Below are positions 1 to 52,429 of a stretch of DNA of 64,000 nt, piece by piece. This stretch comes from Citrus sinensis. Lineage: Eukaryota > Streptophyta > Magnoliopsida > Sapindales > Rutaceae. Below the pieces are notes generated by a model. That model was not told the origin of the DNA, did no database searches, and was given only the letters and a program-made list of their open reading frames with translations. Location: contig NC_068562.1 of the NCBI RefSeq assembly GCF_022201045.2, positions 26,618,501 through 26,682,500 on the forward strand. Reading direction: 5' to 3'. A program made the position numbers and the translations under genes. The stretch's first letter is position 1; the number at the start of each line of letters is the position of its first letter.

Positions 1-1345
1 GCAGAATCCCAAGCTTTGAAGAAATTACCTAAGGCATGCAAAGGCTCACCAAGTCTCAAAGCCTGTTTTATGGCGAGACAGAAGCCAAGCATGCCAGGAT
101 CTGCTCGGCCACGAGAAGGCTAGCAGAATCCCAAGCTTTGAAGAAATCATCTAAGGCATGCAAAGGCTCACCAAGTCTCAAAGCCTGTTTTATGGCGAGA
201 CAGAAGCCAAGCATGCCAGGATCTGCTCGGCCACGAGAAGGCTAGCAGAATCCCAAGCTTTGAAGAAATCATCTAAGGCATGCAAAGGCTCACCAAGTCT
301 CAAAGCCTGTTTTATGGCCAGACAGAAGCTAAGCATGCCAGGATCTGCTCGGCCACGAGAAGGCTAGCAGAATCCCAAGCTTTGAAGAAATCATCTAAGG
401 CATGCAAATGATCACCAAGTCTCAAAGCCTGTTTTATGGCGAGACAGAAGCCAAGCATGCCAGGATCTGCTCGGCCACGAGAAGGCTAGCAGAATCCCAA
501 GCTTTGAAGAAATTACCTAAGGCATGCAAAGGCTCACCAAGTCTCAAAGCCTGTTTTATGGCGAGACAGAAGCCAAGCATGCCAGGATCTGCTCGGCCAC
601 GAGAAGGCTAGCAGAATCCCAAGCTTTGAAGAAATCATCTAAGGCATGCAAAGGCTCACCAAGTCTCAAAGCCTGTTTTATGGCGGACAGAAGCCAAGCA
701 TGCCAGGATCTGCTCGGCCACGAGAAGGCTAGCAGAATCCCAAGCTTTGAAGAAATCATCGAAGGCATGCAAAGGCTCGTCAAGTCTCAAAGCCCGTTTA
801 TGGCGAAACAGAAGCCAAGCATGCCAGGATCTGCTCGGCCACGTGAAGGCGAGCAGACTCCAAAGCATTCGAAAAATTTTCAAAGGCATGCAAAGGCTCA
901 CTAAGTCTCAAAGCCTGTTTTATGGCGAGACCAGAAGCCAAGCGTGCCAGGATCTGCTCGACCAAGTGTAGGCGAGCAGACTCCTAAGCATTAAAAAATT
1001 TCCAAGGCATGCAAAGACTCGTCAAGTCTCAAAGCATGTTTTATGGCGAGATAGAAGCCAAGCATGCCAGGATCTGCTCGACCACGTGAAGGCGAGCAGA
1101 CTCCAAAGCATTCGAAAAATTTTCAAAGGCATGCAAAGGCTCACTAAGTCTCAAAGCCTGTTTTATGGCGAGACCAGAAGACAAGCGTGCCAGGATCTGC
1201 TCGACCAAGTGTAGGCGAGTAGACTCCCAAGCATTAAAAAATTTCTAAGGCATGCAAAGACTCACCAAGTCTCAAAGCCTGTTTATGGCGAGACCAGAAG
1301 CCAGGCATGCCAGGATCTGCTCGACCAAGCGAAGGCGAGTAGACC
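1..1345. repeat. 122-bp tandem repeat array (about 11 units)
   Basis: The unit beginning gcagaatcccaagctttg recurs at about 1, 123, 245, 367, 489 and 611, giving a period of 122 bp. Units up to about 730 are nearly identical. Units from about 850 to 1345 are more diverged, with small indels and a second subtype (cattcgaaaa or cattaaaaaa in place of the agctttgaag segment). The array enters the window already in progress, so its left end is not visible. It abuts a putative gypsy LTR on the right. Known plant Tat/Ogre-type retrotransposons carry tandem repeats in the 3' untranslated region next to the LTR, and that is the favoured explanation. Short open frames that repeat with the unit are by-products of the repeat. 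Confidence 0.93.
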
Positions 1346-34998: not shown

Positions 34999-35340
34999 TT
35001 GGCTCTGATACTAAAATAAAGTAAGAAAAACACAAAGGATGATTTTATTACTTGAAGAAAGAATATAAGATTTTACCTAAGTATTTTTACTACAATTTTA
35101 TATTATAAAATTTCAGGACTCGATGCCTCAACACGTTATTAGGGAATCTTTTTTATAGGCACCAAGGGAATCATCTTTTACTATTTACATCATTACACTT
35201 TATCATAAAGGAATCTCCTTTATGATTCATCATAATTTATATTACATCACACAATACACCCTTATCCATATGAAATATACTTTACAACTCATTATAAGTG
35301 ACACCACACACTCGCCACTTATTTATTGGATACTATTTTA
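34999..35340 (-). mobile_element. Ty1/copia-type LTR remnant with primer-binding site
   Basis: Read on the minus strand, a sequence with a TATA box (gcctataaaaaag, near 35150) and a tttattttag end leads directly into TATCAGAGCCAA. That is the initiator-Met tRNA primer-binding motif (TGGTATCAGAGC type) used by plant copia elements; it lies at about 34999-35012. This is the layout of a 5' LTR plus PBS in minus orientation. No gag-pol follows, so it is a truncated or solo relic. The outer LTR end is approximate. Confidence 0.6.
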
Positions 35341-35386
35341 AAGCAATTAACTATTCTGGAGAATTGAATCAAAATTTTTACAATTT

Positions 35387-35395
35387 AGCAAAAAG
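35387..35395. repeat. 9-bp target-site duplication, left copy
   Basis: AGCAAAAAG directly abuts GGACACGGCTA, the left end of the Mutator-like element. The identical 9-mer follows the right end at 42517-42525. Confidence 0.88.
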
Positions 35396-35403
35396 GGACA
35401 CGG

Positions 35404-35538
35404 CTATGATACAGGGACTCAAAGTCCCTGTATCATAGAGGGGGTCAATTTATTGACCCCTTTGTTGTTTGGCTGCCATCTGGCAGCCAAACAACTTTTT
35501 TGACTGGCAGCAACCGGTTTTACAGCCGGTTGCTGCCA
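35404..35538. repeat. Four consecutive perfect hairpins near the MULE left end
   Basis: Four inverted repeats follow one another. (1) 16-bp arms 35404-35419 and 35423-35438, 3-nt loop. (2) 9-bp arms 35441-35449 and 35452-35460, 2-nt loop. (3) 15-bp arms 35464-35478 and 35481-35495, 2-nt loop. (4) 13-bp arms 35505-35517 and 35526-35538, 8-nt loop. All arms pair perfectly. Loops this short on double-stranded DNA favour cruciform or foldback structures. Confidence 0.93.
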
Positions 35539-35769
35539 TTAATATGTTTTTTTTATTTAAATAAATTAAAATAAAAAATATTTAAAACGAATAATATTTA
35601 AAAAATAATAATAATAATAAGTAAAAAATGACAAGTAAAGTAAAAATGAAAAAAATATTTTTTATTATAAATATTTTAAAAAATAAAATAAAATGTGTGT
35701 TAACAAAAAGACAAAAATTTTATTCATTTTCTATGAAATTTATCTCATGTTTAACATTTTAAGTTTCAT

Positions 35770-37480
35770 ATTTTATGTTTTATGTTTCATGTACTGATTT
35801 TTCAAATACCCCAAAATTTTTTTTTTTGCACCCGTTTCATGTTTACGTTCTATATTTCATGTTTGATGTTCTATGTTTCATGTTTTATGTTTCATGTTCA
35901 CTGTTACGGAGGGACTCATATTTTATGTTTGTTGTTGCATATTTTAAGTGATATGTTTCATGTTGGTTGTGCAATGTTTCATGTACTGATTTTTCAAATA
36001 CCCCGAAATTTTTTTTTTTGCACCCGTTTCATGTTTACGTTCTAGGTTTCATGTTTGATGTTCTATGTTTCATGTTTTATGTTTCATGTTCACTGTTACG
36101 GAGGGACTCATATTTTATGTTCGTTGTTGCATATTTTAAGTGATATGTTTCATGTTGGTTGTGCAATGTTTCATGTACTGATTTTTCAAATACCCCGGAA
36201 TTTTTTTTTTTGCACCCGTAACATGTTTACGTTCTATGTTTCATGTTTGATGTTCTATGTTTCATGTTTTATGTTTCATGTTCACTGTTACGGAGGGACT
36301 CATATTTTATGTTCGTTGTTGCATATTTTAAGTGATATGTTTCATGTTGGTTGTGCAATGTTTCATGTACTGATTTTTCAAATACCCCGCAATTTTTTTT
36401 TTTGCACCCGTTTCATGTTTACGTTCTATGTTTCATGTTTGATGTTCTATGTTTCATGTTTTATGTTTCATGTTCACTGTTACGGAGGGACTCATATTTT
36501 ATGTTCGTTGTTGCATATTTTAAGTGATATGTTTCATGTTGGTTGTGCAATGTTTCATGTACTGATTTTTCAAATACCCCGCAATTTTTTTTTTGCACCC
36601 GTTTCATGTTTACGTTCTATGTTTCATGTTTCATGTTCACTGTTACGGAGGGACTCATATTTTATGTTCGTTGTTGCATATTTTAAGTGATATGTTTCAT
36701 GTTGGTTGTGCAATGTTTCATGTACTGATTTTTCAAATACCCCGCAATTTTTTTTTTTGCACCCGTTTCATGTTTACGTTCTATATTTCATGTTTGATGT
36801 TCTATGTTTCATGTTTTATGTTTCATGTTCACTGTTACGGAGGGACTCATATTTTATGTTCGTTGTTGCATATTTTAAGTGATATGTTTCATGTTGGTTG
36901 TGCAATGTTTCATGTACTGATTTTTTAAATACCCCGAAATTTTTTTTTTTGCACCCGTTTCATGTTTACGTTCTATGTTTCATGTTTGATGTTCTATGTT
37001 TCATGTTTTATGTTTCATGTTCACTGTTACGGAGGGACTCATATTTTATGTTCGTTGTTGCATATTTTAAGTGATATGTTTCATGTTGGTTGTGCAATGT
37101 TTCATGTACTGATTTTTTAAATACCCCGAAATTTTTCTTTTTTGCCCCCGTTTCATGTTTACGTTCTCTGTTTCATGTTTGTTGTTCTACGTTTCATGTT
37201 TTATGTTTCATGTTCCATGTTACGGAGGGACTCATATTTTATGTTTGTTGTTGCATATTTTAAGTGATATGTTTCATGTTGGTTGTGCAATGTTTCATGT
37301 ACTGATTTTTCAAATACCCCGAAATTTTTCTTTTTTGCCCCCGTTTCATGTTTACGTTCCACGTTTCATGTTTGCTGTTCTACGTTTCATGTTTGACGTT
37401 GTATGTTCACTGTTATGGAGGTACTCATATTTTATGTTCGCTGTTGCATATTTTAAGTAAAATGTTTAATGTTTGTTGTT
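35770..37480. repeat. 192-bp tandem repeat array (about 9 units)
   Basis: The marker gtactgatttttcaaatac recurs at 35791, 35983, 36175, 36367, 36559, 36722, 36914, 37106 and 37299. Spacing is 192 bp throughout, except one unit shortened by 29 bp (36559-36722) and one of 193 bp. Each unit is itself built of shorter degenerate copies around atgtttcatg and ends in a T-tract followed by gcacccg. The first and last units are more diverged. Because 192 is a multiple of three, one frame stays open through several units; this is not evidence of a protein. Confidence 0.95.
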
Positions 37481-37626
37481 TAATGTTTGTTGGAATGATG
37501 AATGTTGCATCTTGATTTATGTTTTACTACATGGCTTGATATGTTTGTTATTATATGAATTTATGCTTCATGAATTAGATAGCTTGATATACTTGTAATT
37601 TTATGATTTTATATTTCATGCATTAA

Positions 37627-38428
37627 GGGCGCGTTTAGTGCATGGGATTGTGTGGTATTATACCACTATTCACATTAATTTATTACCAAGAAGTTGTTTG
37701 GTAAAATTTGAGACCTCATTATACTGCATTATAATACAGCATAATAAGGCATGGGGTCGCATTACGCAAACCCAAGGGAACCTCGGGTTTGCGTAATGCG
37801 GAAGCTTTTTGCCTCAATTGAGGCAAATTTATTTTATTAAAATATTATAAAAATAAATTATTTTATTATTAAATACTAATATAATGAATAAAATATAAAA
37901 ATAAATTATATGATAATATTATTTTATTTATTAATGATTCATATAAAAATAATATATTAATATTATAATATTATTTACATTAATATTAATTTTAAAATTA
38001 ATATTATTTAAATTTATGCAAATTTCAATATTTATAATTATTTATATTAAATTAAAAATTTATTAATATATTAAAATGTAAAAATAATAATATATTTTAA
38101 ATTAAAATATAATTTAATATTATTGAATAATAATTTATTAATTTATATTAACAATTATAATATTAATTATAATCTAAATTTATTATTTACATATAATATT
38201 AAATTTTATAAAATTTTTTATCATAATTATAATACAAATTTTAAGATTTCTATATTTATTATTTTTCTAAGTATTAATATATATTATTTTTTAATTATTT
38301 AATTTAATTAATCAAACATTCTACAATATTGTTATAATACAATGCTAACGCAATACAACATAATACAATATACCAGCATTAAAATAATACAATACAGCAT
38401 AATACAATATAGTGTGCCAAACTCACCC
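37627..38428. mobile_element. PIF/Harbinger (Tourist-like) MITE nested in the MULE
   Basis: The left terminus GGGCGCGTTTAGTGCA and reverse-complemented right terminus GGGTGAGTTTGGCACA form a 16-bp imperfect TIR. The trinucleotide TAA flanks both ends (37624-37626, 38429-38431), the duplication typical of Harbinger elements. The interior is extremely AT-rich with no transposase. It holds a perfect 16-bp inverted repeat (cgcattacgcaaaccc and its complement, about 37750-37791) followed by ttgcctcaattgaggcaa. Confidence 0.72.
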
Positions 38429-38563
38429 TAAATGGCTTATTGAAAGGTTTTAAATCTCAAAATGATTTAAAATTAAGCAATTTTAAAAGGCCAAAAATAA
38501 AATGGTGTGTGTAATACAAGTATAAGAGCTTACCCAATTAGAGACAAAAAGATTTCCCAAGTC

Positions 38564-38990
38564 TAAACCGGTATACCACTTCTTCTCATCCGGAAAACCG
38601 TTTTTCTTATTGATTTCTCTCGGGACAAATTCCGGATAACCGGATTGTTCAAATCGGTGAGCCGCATTTTCTTTGGTTGCTCTCGGGTCAATATTCGGAT
38701 AACCGGATTATCAATCCGGAAAACCGGATTCGCGTATGGCCTTCACTGGATTTAACCGGATAGCCGGTTCTGTAAATCCGGAAATCCAGATTCGAGCTGC
38801 ACTTTGGCAGCATTCTGGATTCATTCGGCCAACCGGTTAAGGAAACCGGTAAGCCGGTTTTAACGTGCTATCTTCTGGATCCAACCGGCAAGCCGGTTTG
38901 TGATATCCGGAAAACCGGATTCGAGTGAAGGACTTGCTGGAACATAACCGGATTTCCGGTTCAAGTCAAACCGGCAAGCCGTTTACGGCT
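38564..38990. repeat. CCGG-dense palindromic block inside the MULE
   Basis: About 20 CCGG tetramers occur in roughly 420 bp, in recurring phrases such as atccggaaaaccggattcg and aaccggcaagccggttt that are mutually complementary. The spacing is irregular, so it is not a simple tandem repeat. It is set in otherwise AT-rich DNA. No coding potential was recognised. Confidence 0.85.
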
Positions 38991-41300
38991 TGTAAGCTTC
39001 TAGTCACTTTAATTTCGTGCACTGATTTTAATCTTTCAATAGTCATACCTTATACTACAAGTGTTCGTTTTAAACATTCAATAATATTATTTTGTAAACA
39101 TTTTTCATCTAATTTTTTATAAATATAATCACTTTCGAAGTATTTGTATTATGAATAAAGGTAACCAACAAAATAATAATATTCCAATCCGAATTTGCTT
39201 TTAAGTGTTTTAAATCTTTCGTTTGGTCGGAGAACTATCAAAGCCTCTTAGTGTCTTATATTTAATTTTAATCTTTGAAATATAGCACTCGCTTTTTATT
39301 AAAGAAAAGTACAATTGAATATATAAGTGTGCTAAAGCAAAATATGACTTAACTATTAAGTTTGATTAAAAAAAAACTAAAATGAGTAAAATACTAATGG
39401 TTGCAATAAGTGGCCTCACAAATAAATTCGGAAGAGCTCTTATGTTCCACTGGCGCTTTTTATAGCCAAAATCTCCACTATAAATAACCTTGCAACCATT
39501 TTTAATTCTATTAATTCCCACACAAATTTATAGGCTTATTTTCCCATCCGCTAAATCAATTTAATCAATTTATTTTAACTAATTATAGGAAACACAATTT
39601 AATGAAAATAAATCAAATTAACTATTCCTACGTCAAACATAATATTTTCTACATATCATCCTAAAAATCCACCAAAATCTAGTACATTACACCAAGTGTA
39701 TCATCCAACCTTATTACAAGTACCATCTCCGAAAAAAAAAGTGGATTGATATATTGCATAAATTTACGACAAATAAAAAAAGGAAGAAAGGTAAGTAGTT
39801 TTAAAGTAAAAGCTCAGCACAGCTTATTAACAACGTATTTATTTTTTAGCAGTATAACATTTTTTTTTGACATTTTTCAAATAAGTATCTTGTGAAATAA
39901 ACATCCATGCAAATGAAATAAACTAAGCTTTATTAAAATAAATAACAGGATAAATAAATAATTAAAACATATGGTTTCATTCAAAAGTCATCAATTGTGA
40001 TCACCATATCAATTGCAATCATTTTACCATTGAGGGGTAATAACACAACAATTTTCCAGTATCCTGCCTCATGGTCAATACTTATAATTGTTGTATAAAA
40101 TTGAATGTGTTCTATCACTTGCTCAGCAACTACAACGAAACCCAGCAATGTAAATGGAAAAAGAAATTTTTTTTACATAAGCCGTATAAAAGATGCCTTG
40201 CAAATATCAACCTATATTTACTAAAGCCAACCCTAAAATTCTGCAGCCAACAAAATTGCAACAAAGCCGCAGCAAAGTTCATCATCCAACAGATTCTGCC
40301 CCCTCCGAATAATTTCCAGCTATTCCAACTGTAAGACACAAACAAGAAAGCAAAAACCAAATCCCATAACTAGAAGTATAAAAAATCTTGCCAAAATATT
40401 TACTGAACCCACGAATGTAACTTGCTTTCTCATAACTCAGCAACAAAGACACCACCACCAAATCTCGCATCCATAATAAGATACAAAACCAAAGCAAAAA
40501 TGAAACATTTCTTCTTCATGGACGACATTGCCATTTCCACTCTTATTATTTCTCTTAAACTACTTTTCTTTTCCTGTTCCTTAAAATGCAGAGACAAGTA
40601 AGAATTCCAATTCCAGGCAGGCGATGATGCAAGTTCCAAGCACTCACAAAGGGCTTTCGTGGATAAGTTTCTCAATCAAAATCAAATTAAATCAAAATCA
40701 AATTATTGGTGAGTGAATTTTATTTTATATATTACCTCTCCTGCCTAAATAAGATTCTTGTGCCTCAGCATTAAGTCCGCTGCCAAATCCGACCCGGAGC
40801 TTGAACTTTACTTTGTTGGTACTAAACTCGCACTTGATGGACAGTTTGAGAGCGAAGCGGACAGATCTATGACTTCAAAAGCCTTATCCTAACGCGCCAC
40901 AGGGCAATCTCCCAGAATTACTGAGAGAATACCAAAACTTCCCCTAAAACTGCAGCACAAAATATGTAAGAATAAAAAGCTGTAAAAAATAGCAGTTCAA
41001 ATATTCAAATAGGTGCAGATAAAAAATACAAGAAATAATGTAGCGCGGTCCCAATACTCAAAAACATTTTGCCATCACTGCTCCAGAGATGTGCAAGAAA
41101 ATGAAAGACATTAAACTAAATTTCAAGGATTCAGTAATGAAAGGGAAACAAAAGCATGTTGGAAAACCCCCTTAAAAAAAAAAAATTAGTCCCACACTCC
41201 TCCATAACTCTGACCTTATCTATCATTGCATGATAAAAATTCTAACAAGGACACAAACAAAATACTATGAAAGCTTGGGTTAAAAACTGACTATAGACAC
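38991..41300. other. MULE interior, no gene recognised
   Basis: AT-rich sequence with scattered short frames on both strands. A small minus-strand frame (40430-40675) ends in a hydrophobic stretch but has no homologue that I recognise. Whether any host gene fragment has been captured cannot be told without a search. Confidence 0.5.
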
Positions 41301-41329
41301 TCCCTGAGTTGCACAAGTCCGTATATTGA

Positions 41330-41475
41330 ACTATTCAAAACATCTCCTCTCACACTGCAATAAAAGTTTGCAAAAATGAAAGAGAGCTTAAGCGTTCTTC
41401 CTTATAAGAATTACTCAAAACATCTCTTCACAAAAGCCAAAAAAGTTTGCAAAAATGAAAGAGAGCTTAAGCATT
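41330..41475. repeat. Two-copy direct repeat (about 77 bp period)
   Basis: The phrase aaaagtttgcaaaaatgaaa followed by gagagcttaagc occurs at about 41362-41393 and 41440-41472, each preceded by a ctcaaaacatctc-like block. It is a local duplication inside the MULE right arm. Confidence 0.85.
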
Positions 41476-41749
41476 CAAATAAGACAAAATATTACTCACA
41501 TACAGTCTACTCTAAAGCATTCATAGATAGAAGAAAAAAACTAAAGAGAGGTTTTGGGGCGGGGGGAGCTCATTACAGAGAACCCAAGTAGCAAAGTCTA
41601 GATACTCCACATAAACTACGAACTTTCCAACATCACATGCACAAAATAAATAATAATTACTCAAAATTTACCCAAATAGAAGAATAATACCAGTGAGCCA
41701 ATGTCGATTCTCAACATATATGCTCCGATCTCTTTATAGGAGCAACTTG

Positions 41750-42330
41750 AGAGAGAGAGCAGCAGCACCAGTCGAGACAAAGCAGAGACGCAGCAACACC
41801 ACCACCACCAGCCGAGACAGAGCATGGACGCATCAGTAGCAGCATCACAAGTTATTCCTAAAGAGAGATGCAACAGCAGCAGTCGATCCTTAAGAGAGAA
41901 ATTGTAGCAGCAGCACCACCACCACCACCAATCGAGAGAAGCCGAGACACGACAGCAGTCGATTCTGGTTGAAGAACTGTGATGGAGAGGGAGACAGCTG
42001 TGACGAATCGTGGTTGAAGAACTATGACAGAGAAAGAGATGTGAATTTCGATCGGGATAAGGAGATTAGGCTTGGGTTTTGTTTTGCAATTTCTTTTTTG
42101 ATATAATTTCTGATTCATCTGAGAACGTGTTTAACACGAGAGCGAGAGTGAGAGCGGGAGCGGGAGCGGGAGCGGGAGCGGGAGCGGGAACATGAGCGTG
42201 AGCAGGAGCGCGAGAGTGAGCAAGAGCGAGAGCGAGGAAGAATGTGGGGATGGAGAGGGAGAAAGATGAGGATTTTCTGGTTCAATGTTCCGGGGGGGGG
42301 GGGGGGGAGGAGAACAAGGGGGTGGGGGAG
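41750..42330. repeat. Low-complexity right arm of MULE: CAG/CAC runs, GGGAGC hexamers, poly-G
   Basis: Positions 41757-41930 are rich in cagcag and caccaccac runs. A hexanucleotide run gggagc repeats about six times at 42155-42188 within a longer purine tract. A 16-base G run lies at 42292-42307. On the minus strand the segment is pyrimidine-rich with twice-repeated gttcttcaaccacgat / gttcttcaaccagaat phrases at about 41960-42030, which resembles a plant 5' UTR. Minus-strand open frames here are leucine/proline low complexity and are not supported as genes. Confidence 0.8.
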
Positions 42331-42516
42331 AAAGAGAGGGGGATGAAAATGCTTTTCTTCCGGTTGCCCTTCTTTTTTTGCTTTTATTCACGTTTTCTTT
42401 CTTTTTTTTTCAAATTAAAACCTCAACCGTTGGATTCAAATAAACTGAATCCAATGGCTCAATGGCAGCCCCTGCACCATACAGGGGATTTTAGGCCCTG
42501 CATGGTAGCCGTGTCC

Positions 42517-42525
42517 AGCAAAAAG
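42517..42525. repeat. 9-bp target-site duplication, right copy
   Basis: AGCAAAAAG immediately follows the right MULE terminus TAGCCGTGTCC and is identical to the left copy at 35387-35395. Confidence 0.88.
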
Positions 42526-43276
42526 AGGCCGGTTTGAGATTGTTGTAAATTATACACTTATGTCAGTTCATGTAATCAATTCTTCTTTATCCACATTGTC
42601 TTGCGAATGGACCAAAACTCTATATTGAAAAATTATCAAAACTCTACATAAAGTTAAAAAGATATTGATCGTTAATTCCTACATATAGTTTTCTTTAGCT
42701 CACTTTTTAAAATACAGATGTCTTTTGTAAATATTAAGATACAAAAATTATGTATATCGAAGCGTTAACTGTGCAACAAAAATTTGTTCTTTTGTAACTT
42801 TCTGTATAAAAGGGGAAAAAAAAATCAAATCTTCGTACTAACGTAAAATAAATTTCAAAATTCATATTATTCCTCTTGACATTAATCTAGAAAGCATTCC
42901 CAAAACGATTCCTAAATTTAGAAATTCTTTTTAGCCAAAAGACAACTTATTTTCCGCATAAACAACAATGATAGGGAAAAAAAAAAGCTTCCAATTATTA
43001 CCAAGAAAATGAAATTAATTAACAACACAAAAAATAAAAACCTCTATAAAAAGCAAATATTTTTCTAAACTCCCGCTTGGCCTCCCAATATTGTCGTAAC
43101 TTTCTATTGAAACCTCATTAATCGAATTAACCATTCATATTACCATAATCTGTTTAATCCACAAGAAGCTAATAAACCCCCAAAGATTCAATCAATAATC
43201 TTTGTGTTGATCAACCATTAACCACTAGTAATCTCTCTCTCTACAGCCTGGTTACCGAACCGGCCGGCTCAACACC
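42526..43276 (+). promoter_or_regulatory. Promoter region of the GH17 gene
   Basis: AT-rich upstream DNA with a TATA box (ctctataaaaagc, about 43042-43054) placing transcription start near 43080 and a 5' leader of about 200 bases. The leader is pyrimidine-containing (aatctctctctctacagcc) just before the ATG. The MULE right end is only 760 bp upstream of the ATG, so part of the native promoter may have been displaced. Confidence 0.5.
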
Positions 43277-45554
43277 ATGGCTCGAGCCGCGTTCTTTTTC
43301 TTCCTTTTCTTGTTCATCTCTAATCACTTGATATGTCAAGTTTTAGCCCAAGATGACAAAAACAAAGACGATGGGGACAACAAAGATGGAAACGGAAACA
43401 ACAACAACGGCAACGGCAACGACAACAACGGCAATAAAAATGGCAACAATGGTAATAACAACGGAAACAACAACAACGGCAATAGCAATGGCAACAATGG
43501 AAATAACAACAGCAACGGTGGCAACAACGGTAACAATAACAATGGCAACAACAACGGTGACAATGGCAACGGAAACAACAACAACAACAACAATGGCAAC
43601 AATGGCAATAACAATGGCAACAATGGTAATAACAACGGAAACAACAACGGTGGCAATAGCAGTGGCAACAACAATGACAATAACAACAATGGCAACAACA
43701 ATAACAATGGTGACAATAGCAACAACGGCAACAGCAACAACAATAAAAACAACGATGGCAACAGCAACAATGGTAATAACAATAACAACGGTGGGAACAA
43801 CAACAACAACAACAACGGTAACAATAACAACGGCGGCAATCACAACGCCAAGGTCGACAATTTTGACTATGCCCATATTAAACCCGTCGACGTTGGCGTC
43901 AACTGGGGCAACCTTGCATCGCACCCACTGCCGGCGAAGATCATTGTGCAAATGCTCAAGGATAATGGAATCAAGAGGGCGAAACTTTTCGATGCCGATG
44001 AAACGAGTGTCAAAGAACTTGCACACACAGGCATTGAAGTAATGGTTGCCATTCCTAATGGCATGTTATTTGACATGGCTGTAGATTATAGCAATGCCCA
44101 AAATTGGGTCAAAGAAAATGTCACCCGATGGGTCAAGGATGGTTCCGTGAAGCTCAAGTATGCATTTTTTTTTCCTTATCTATTTTTCAATTTCAATTAA
44201 AATAAAATCTGGATAAATTAATCAAGAAAAAAAAGAGCATTTAAATAAGCAAATATTCATTAACTAAAAGTTAAGTAAGACTATATTAAAAAATTCAAAC
44301 TGACGCTGACAACCAAACAATACTATTAAAAAATCAATGCATGTAAATATTGATTATCTTATTTTTTACTAGCATATGATAATATTGACTAATATTTTGT
44401 GCGGTTTTTGAAAAGAAAAATTAATGGTTTTGCATGCATGCAGGTACGTAGCCGTTGGAAATGAACCATTTTTGAAATCTTACAATGATTCGTTCGTCAA
44501 GGACACATTCCCAGCCTTGAAGAACGTTCAACAGGCTCTGGTAGAGGCTGGCCACGGCAAAATGGTCAAGGCCACCGTGCCGTTGAACGCCGACGTGTAT
44601 GAAGGGACTCTGCCGTCGGACGGGATTTTCCGCAAGGACATAAAGCAGCACATCGACAACATTCTGAAAAACCTTCACGACAACGAATCACCCTTCATCG
44701 TCAACATCTATCCCTTCCTCAGTCTCTACGAAAGCCCTGATTTCCCCGTGGAGTACGCCTTCTTCGAGGAGGGTGCCAAAGGCCTTCAGGACAAGAACCA
44801 CCGTTACACCAACGTGCTTGATGGAAATTACGACACCCTTTTGTGGGCGTTGAAGAAAGCCGGTTACCCGGATATCAAGATCATCATCGGAGAAATCGGG
44901 TGGCCCACGGATGGTCACAAGGCGGCCACCAGCCAAAGCGCACAGAAGTTTTATGATGGGTTGTTCAAAAAGTTGGCTAAACGAGATGGCACCCCACTCA
45001 GGCCAGGAACTGAATTTGATGTCTACTTGTTTGGGTTTCTCGATGAAGACGCCAAGAGCATTGCCCCGGGGAAGTTCGAGAGGCATTGGGGGATCTTTCG
45101 ATTTGACGGGCAGCCGAAATTCCCCATTGATTTCACTGGGAGAGGGCAGAATAAGATGCCAGTTGGGGCCAAAGGGGTGAAGTATTATGATCACAAATGG
45201 TGTGTGCTTGATAAAGGGGTCACAAATTTTGAGTTGGTAGACCAGCAGCTGTTTAAAGCTTGCCAAGAAGGAGATTGCACGGCCACTGAACCGGGTTCGT
45301 CGTGCAGCGGCCTTGATAACCTAACAAAAGTTTCATACGCATTTAACATGTACTTTCAAATGAATCAGCAAGTTAATAAAGCTTGTGACTTTGAGGGCTT
45401 GGCTTTGATCACGGATAAGAATGCAAGTGTCGGCAACTGTTTGTTTCCTATACAGATTGATAGTGGTGATGCGGCAAGCTTGGTGAAATTGGCCACTGGG
45501 GCAGCGGCTATGGCAGCTACTGTTGCTGGAATTTTGTTGACAATTCTAATGTAA
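43277..45554 (+). CDS. GPI-anchored GH17 endo-1,3-beta-glucanase with X8 domain and Asn-rich insert
   Basis: Two exons, 43277-44157 and 44444-45554, join with correct phase into 663 aa. An N-terminal signal peptide (residues 1-25, FFFFLFLFISNHLI core) is followed by an Asn/Gly tract (about 26-190, roughly 63% Asn). The GH17 domain starts near VDVGVNWGNLASHPLP. The catalytic acid is E301 in VAVGNEPF and the nucleophile E444 in IIGEIGWPT; both are intact. An X8/CBM43 domain starts at KWCVLDKG and carries the usual cysteines. A hydrophobic C-terminus (AAAMAATVAGILLTILM) suggests a GPI signal. The family hydrolyses callose at cell walls or plasmodesmata. The Asn tract is not a normal part of the family; two N-X-S sequons are visible in it (N77, N127). 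Confidence 0.93.

Positions 45555-52399: not shown

Positions 52400-52429
<30 letters not shown>
52400..52429. repeat. 30-base poly-C tract just after the Thg1 stop
   Basis: An uninterrupted run of 30 C followed by six T begins 39 bp after the stop codon at 52361. It sits in the likely 3' UTR. Such runs can form i-motif or, on the other strand, G-quadruplex structures. The exact length is prone to sequencing and assembly error. Confidence 0.9.

Follow-up and report, generated by a model that had tools for sequence, protein, structure and literature searches.

The systems closest to the element analysed here are the Jittery-like Mutator-like elements (MULEs) of plants. Citrus CitMule, which is related to Jittery (Terol et al., 2015, PMC4334395), has 9-bp target-site duplications (TSDs), FAR1 and MULE domains and short imperfect inverted repeats. 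Maize Jittery combines a FAR1-type amino-terminal domain with MULE and SWIM domains and has terminal inverted repeats (TIRs) of ~200 bp; its FAR1 domain sets it apart from the MuDR and TED transposases, which have DBD_Tnp_Mut (PMC9569675). ULP sequences are carried by Jittery-like MULEs of melon and grapevine (PMC2528002), and in the ULP1-carrying MULEs (KI-MULEs, melon, grapevine) the protease domain PF02902 lies opposite to and downstream of the transposase (PMC2528002, PMC13317346). In Arabidopsis, the VANDAL21/VANC system has non-coding arrays of short motifs that share a single orientation across the family copies (PMC5735166). Here we describe an element in a 64,000-nucleotide stretch of the Citrus sinensis genome (contig NC_068562.1, C7 in the following; the whole stretch is called the window). 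It is very probably a non-autonomous member of a family of Jittery-like MULEs. It has the two family ends, a mosaic middle and no coding interior, and would be moved by the transposase of its full-length sisters.

The element proper spans positions 35396-42516 of the window (7,121 bp) and is bordered by the following features:

35387..35395, no strand: left copy of the TSD, 9 bp, AGCAAAAAG (sequence read)
35396..35406, + strand: left TIR, 11 bp, GGACACGGCTA, within a 48-nt imperfect inverted repeat
42506..42516, - strand: right TIR, 11 bp, TAGCCGTGTCC
42517..42525, no strand: right copy of the TSD, 9 bp, AGCAAAAAG (sequence read)

The perfect 9-bp TSD and the 11-bp inverted termini more than 7 kb apart, both reported in an earlier note on this DNA, were recovered base for base: AGCAAAAAG is present at 35387-35395 and again at 42517-42525, and GGACACGGCTA and TAGCCGTGTCC are inverted copies with zero mismatches. 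These termini belong to a longer inverted pair of 48 nt with 77% complementarity. The 20-mer AGCAAAAAGGGACACGGCTA occurs a single time in the window, and none of 100 shuffles contains it when up to three mismatches are allowed. A 9-bp TSD and TIRs are two of the hallmarks of MULEs, and the window element has both. The strict TIR-MULE class, for which the wording in PMC4334395 is inverted repeats of 100-200 bp at ~95%, was rejected, since the repeats here are perfect over 11 bp and 77% complementary over 48 nt.

To place the element in a family, the 299.7-Mb assembly (11 contigs) was searched with its left 165 bp and right 167 bp as queries. All 40 left-end candidates were scored, and a 24-base pattern of the left end has 30 matches with no more than one mismatch, two of them only 234 bp apart; the reversed pattern, used as a control, gave none. 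For the right end, where the best 40 of 48 candidates were scored, there are at least 40 matches. When left and right ends are paired by position, 32 candidate elements result, which measure 2.5-16.4 kb each and 233 kb together; a few have a partial left match, and judged from these matches the family is estimated at about 30 copies. TSDs were read in the 22 pairs for which both ends are present: 18 are perfect, two have one mismatch and two pairs have none. Two further coding copies also have a perfect TSD, which brings the count to 20 of 24. When 20 such duplications were reshuffled, at least 18 matches were reached in 0 of 10,000 trials. In one of the two TSD-less pairs (L021) the true left end lies ~2.6 kb farther out and had been missed by the script. 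The sequence of the TSD differs between copies, as expected of independent insertions.

An empty site is provided by the copy at C8:15.81 Mb, whose joined flanks match nine other loci at 72-81%, all nine alignments spanning the junction. Five of them start at or before query position 10 and extend to position 129 of 131, the others cover 1-119 (twice), 6-118 and 16-118, and the best one is gap-free at the junction. Moreover, a search with the interior (query 38440-42340; 39 of 440 candidates scored) recovered three sisters that carry this region in full at 99-100% (C4:6.44, C1:2.60 and C4:9.12 Mb), as well as parts of it in other family copies. At the right end the sisters differ from the window copy by 3, 3 and 9 substitutions per ~1,650 bp; the corresponding left-end counts, 9, 9 and 13 per ~1,560 bp, rest on an alignment that the tandem array renders less secure. 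At a substitution rate of 7 × 10−9 per site per year, the four sister copies would have diverged roughly 0.1-0.6 million years ago. The idea of a family founder, raised in the earlier note, was not supported: the element does not stand alone and is not clearly a founder, being one of four near-identical copies among the roughly 30 of the family, with the coding copies as the more likely source. As a separate observation, eight more left-end matches have three mismatches (C1:6574378, C1:23129455, C2:4785391, C3:48379648, C3:48459468, C5:26768548, C5:26802856 and C8:2608939); two of these read GGACATGTCTATGGTACAGATTCT, the others are close to it, and by their sequence all eight probably represent a sister family.

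Coding copies with the same type of end were found among the family members. Seven of the 150 listed matches to the MULE domain PF10551 (the best 150 of 899 candidates scored, compared with the 32 left/right pairs) lie inside family pairs, compared to 0.12 expected by chance; they are found at C4:26.104, C1:19.705, C2:27.894, C4:5.415, C4:22.835, C4:20.223 and C9:26.745 Mb. An intact coding copy on C2 (L061+L062; 10,491 bp, perfect TSD) has one open reading frame (ORF) of 726 amino acids (aa) with matches to MULE (1.2e-28), FAR1 (PF03101, 7.8e-22) and SWIM (3.5e-5) and, below the cut-off, to a zinc knuckle; DBD_Tnp_Mut was not listed at E ≤ 1. Since FAR1 is present and DBD_Tnp_Mut is not listed, we call the family Jittery-like (criterion of PMC9569675), a label based on domain content and on comparison with the published description. 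The ends differ from those of maize Jittery, whose TIRs of ~200 bp contrast with the 11 bp (perfect) and 48 nt (77%) of the window element. The C2 copy and the window element are 95% identical over ~1.9 kb at their left ends and 73% identical over ~380 bp at their right ends. The window element has the inverted repeat GGACACGGCTA at both ends, the C2 copy has GGACATGGCTA at both ends, and some other family copies have mixed versions at their two ends.

On its opposite strand and downstream of the transposase, the C2 copy has two ORFs that match the Ulp1 protease domain PF02902 (1e-8 and 2.5e-6, above the curated cut-off); a 258-aa ORF and the other scanned ORFs of that strand match no family above cut-off. 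L077, a further coding copy, encodes FAR1 and MULE domains in an ORF of 685 aa, in which no SWIM match was obtained at E ≤ 0.01; it retains the first Ulp1 ORF, and the second was not found by motif scan. Over 685 aligned codons, nonsynonymous and synonymous divergence (dN and dS) between the two transposases are 0.027 and 0.068. The ratio of ~0.39 suggests past constraint on the transposase, to which we give little weight because L077, with its shorter ORF and lack of a SWIM match, seems to be decaying. ULP sequences in Jittery-like MULEs of grapevine and melon are already in print (PMC2528002), and the arrangement of transposase and Ulp1 gene is therefore a known one. The window element, in contrast, carries neither gene. 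The sole ORF of at least 150 aa within it sits in the tandem array of its left part, so that a transposase ORF of this size is absent, in line with what was noted from the sequence earlier. The Mutator-like and non-autonomous reading suggested in the same note, which had also proposed a genome search with the ends, is supported: the two ends are repeated throughout the genome, and a MULE transposase is encoded by copies that have ends of the same kind.

CitMule was located in the assembly by its published topoisomerase-like motif (8 matches), of which the match on C3 adjoins the published CitMule_1 duplication TTGTTGAAA at ~6.79 Mb; in clementine, CitMule_1 is at 6,785,326 on chromosome 3 (PMC4334395). 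Its partial 364-aa ORF, truncated where the locus ends, shares 33% identity with the 726-aa transposase over 317 aa, its end sequence is unlike that of the present family, and the 3-kb locus has no DNA match to the autonomous copy. On these three grounds CitMule was rejected as the identity of the family. A literature search with the end sequences returned no plant-transposon paper by title, with Repbase, preprints and supplementary tables outside its scope. Active citrus MULEs are reportedly called 'CiMULE'.

The left end folds into a row of four hairpins:

35404..35438, no strand: hairpin 1, 16 pairs, overlapping the inverted repeat (fold of left end)
35441..35460, no strand: hairpin 2, 8 pairs (fold of left end)
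35464..35495, no strand: hairpin 3, 14 pairs (fold of left end)
35505..35538, no strand: hairpin 4, 14 pairs (fold of left end)

For the first 150 nt the folding energy is -58.9 kcal/mol, compared to -16.5 ± 2.6 in 200 shuffles (z -16.3), so that the description 'hairpin-ended' applies fully to the left end. It does not extend to the right end, whose hairpin is weak (z -1.25; 20 of 200 shuffles fold equally well or better). Of the 30 left-end loci, five have a hairpin 1 with an inverted centre (L022, L024, L025, L026 and L028), 20 have the uninverted form and five could not be scored; the centre of hairpin 3 is inverted in L026 only, and that of hairpin 4 in L028 only. The inverted centres suggest that the hairpins are extruded, or copied as hairpins. 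The five loci rank among the more divergent copies and therefore may share a single ancestral inversion of the centre of hairpin 1. The stems folded for the window copy were followed through 21 aligned left-end loci out of 30, which make up 17 distinct rows, some lacking letters in hairpins 2 and 3; not one pair had changed on both sides. Pairing is retained in 97.8% of the cells with letters on both sides, the same as with shuffled partners because the stems barely vary. The left-end hairpins are inherited, without demonstrated selection on their stems. No Rfam match at the gathering score was found in positions 35000-43000 of the window or in L063, L065, L066, L068 and L069.

The strong left hairpins, together with the inverted hairpin centres of some copies, would also fit a foldback-type element that moves via its self-complementary ends instead of by an ordinary MULE transposase. 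We regard this as very improbable, since the right end has no strong fold, the stems show no compensatory changes, and copies with the same ends and 9-bp TSDs carry a MULE transposase. Still far less probable is that the element is due to chance or to an assembly artefact. The only point in its favour is that a single assembly was searched; the perfect TSDs of 18 out of 22 paired copies and the empty site of one copy at other loci argue against it, and at the level of the family they rule it out. A non-autonomous Jittery-like MULE accounts best for the locus. The transposase of the full-length sister copies would most likely bind the ends of the window element and move it by cut-and-paste, the target being cut with a 9-bp stagger. 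Several observations weigh against this interpretation. Four of 24 copies lack a perfect TSD (two by one mismatch, and one of the others is the missed left end), the right end is only 73% identical to that of the coding copy, and the inverted repeats of the coding copy are one base off those of the window element (GGACATGGCTA vs GGACACGGCTA). Moreover, binding by the transposase and mobility of the window element are predictions from sequence. Finally, this single genome holds no empty site of the window copy; its flanks are unique there, and its own empty site therefore has to be sought in relatives.

The interior of the element is a patchwork, the parts of which are:

35782..37488, + strand: ~192-bp units in tandem, GTTTCATGT-rich and all in one orientation (~94-95% to the autonomous copy)
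37627..38428, no strand: nested miniature inverted-repeat transposable element (MITE) between TAA duplications at 37624-37626 and 38429-38431 (empty site at L066)
38440..39007, no strand: CCGG-rich block that recurs both in other copies of the family and at several places without a listed family end nearby
39004..40322, no strand: stretch common in pieces to several other family copies, ~92-100% (genome search)
40312..40601, no strand: match (96%) to both C8:4.617 Mb and C9:29.952 Mb, without a listed family end nearby
40601..40898, no strand: match to the mitochondrial contig C10 (90%) and to C2:15.78 Mb (78%)
40902..41609, no strand: match (84%) to a tandem array at C5:36.32 Mb
41632..42138, no strand: second piece (89%) of the C8:4.617/C9:29.952 locus
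42140..42516, no strand: right-end region common to the autonomous copy (73%), with the weak terminal hairpin

The tandem repeat, the CCGG block and the nested MITE that had been noted earlier in this interior are all present, as a 192-bp unit, at ~38440-39007 and at 37627-38428, respectively. The AT-rich MITE, which we take to be of the Tourist type, is missing from L066 (C4:4.53 Mb), where the same flanks enclose one TAA and no insert; L066 has no listed family end nearby. Positions 39844-40292 are also present at C2:21.62 Mb (91%) and C9:11.23 Mb (86%). The 298 bp at 40601-40898 match C10:171897-172178 at 90%; C10 (632.5 kb) is the mitochondrial contig, as indicated by a complete COX1, and this mitochondrial-like piece inside a nuclear transposon may have been transferred in either direction. 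Gap repair after excision, in the course of which unrelated templates are copied, is one explanation for interior mosaics of such elements, and may also have built the present one. A rival reading, which we consider less likely than not, is that the element is a true Pack-MULE whose interior is in part captured host-gene DNA, chiefly a signal-peptide-like exon and the CT-rich leader of the C8:4.617/C9:29.952 Mb loci. The two pieces keep the order they have at these loci, where they are separated by 25 bp, and a shared short ORF begins, as judged by eye, like a signal peptide; further pieces resemble the mitochondrial locus and the array on chromosome 5. Against capture, none of the interior pieces could be traced to a host gene, and the C8 and C9 loci are tied to no known gene, their ORFs having been outside the Pfam scan. 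Across 1.1 kb these two loci are 96% alike, beyond which they diverge, and they could themselves be a repeat. The ORFs of the C5 array are short, none exceeding 119 aa in 2.5 kb of sequence.

The tandem array has a strict orientation. In the window element GTTTCATGT occurs 48 times within 35736-37495, always forward and never reversed, and all 44 occurrences in the C2 coding copy likewise point the same way. When both strands are counted, 18-41 copies of GTTTCAT are found within ~1.66 kb of the left end in 29 of 30 loci, and none in L030; the core of the array is retained in 29 of the 30 left-end loci, the shortest copy included. The target arrays of Arabidopsis VANC look similar in being non-coding, made of a short motif and oriented one way across family copies (PMC5735166). 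The motif is a different one, though, and any VANC-like activity or homology in the present family would be hypothetical. An Ulp1 gene beside the transposase, which is a feature of the VANDAL/KIU (VANC) elements, is found in the autonomous copy only. The Ulp1-bearing gene might be a VANC-like anti-silencing factor and the 192-bp GTTTCATGT arrays its binding platform, in which case the non-autonomous copies would be both moved and de-silenced in trans; in addition, the four-hairpin end would extrude in vivo. Such extrusion would account for the inverted hairpin centres. We consider this combined proposal rather unlikely.

The element lies between a reading frame with a spatacsin C-terminal domain, beyond the end of which it begins at a distance of ~1 kb, and a glycosyl hydrolase 17 gene. 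A reading frame at 43232-44200, which precedes the glycosyl hydrolase 17/X8 reading frame, contains an Asn/Gly-rich low-complexity stretch at 43377-43851. Elsewhere, the edge of the window (1-1343) is occupied by a 122-bp unit repeated 11 times head-to-tail, and positions 52400-52429 are 30 consecutive, uninterrupted Cs.

In summary, the family is of a known kind, that of the Jittery-like MULEs. What is unusual about it are the string of hairpins, their inverted centres, the oriented array and the patchwork interior, which merit note without amounting to a new class. The combination of a hairpin string, a single-orientation array and an Ulp1 gene would offer a compact system in which to test anti-silencing in trans outside Arabidopsis. 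In sweet orange, 31 of 40 spontaneous structural variants have been attributed to three MULEs (PMC9832951). Knowledge of MULE families, of the copies that code for a transposase and of the ends that act in cis is therefore relevant to bud-sport mutation.

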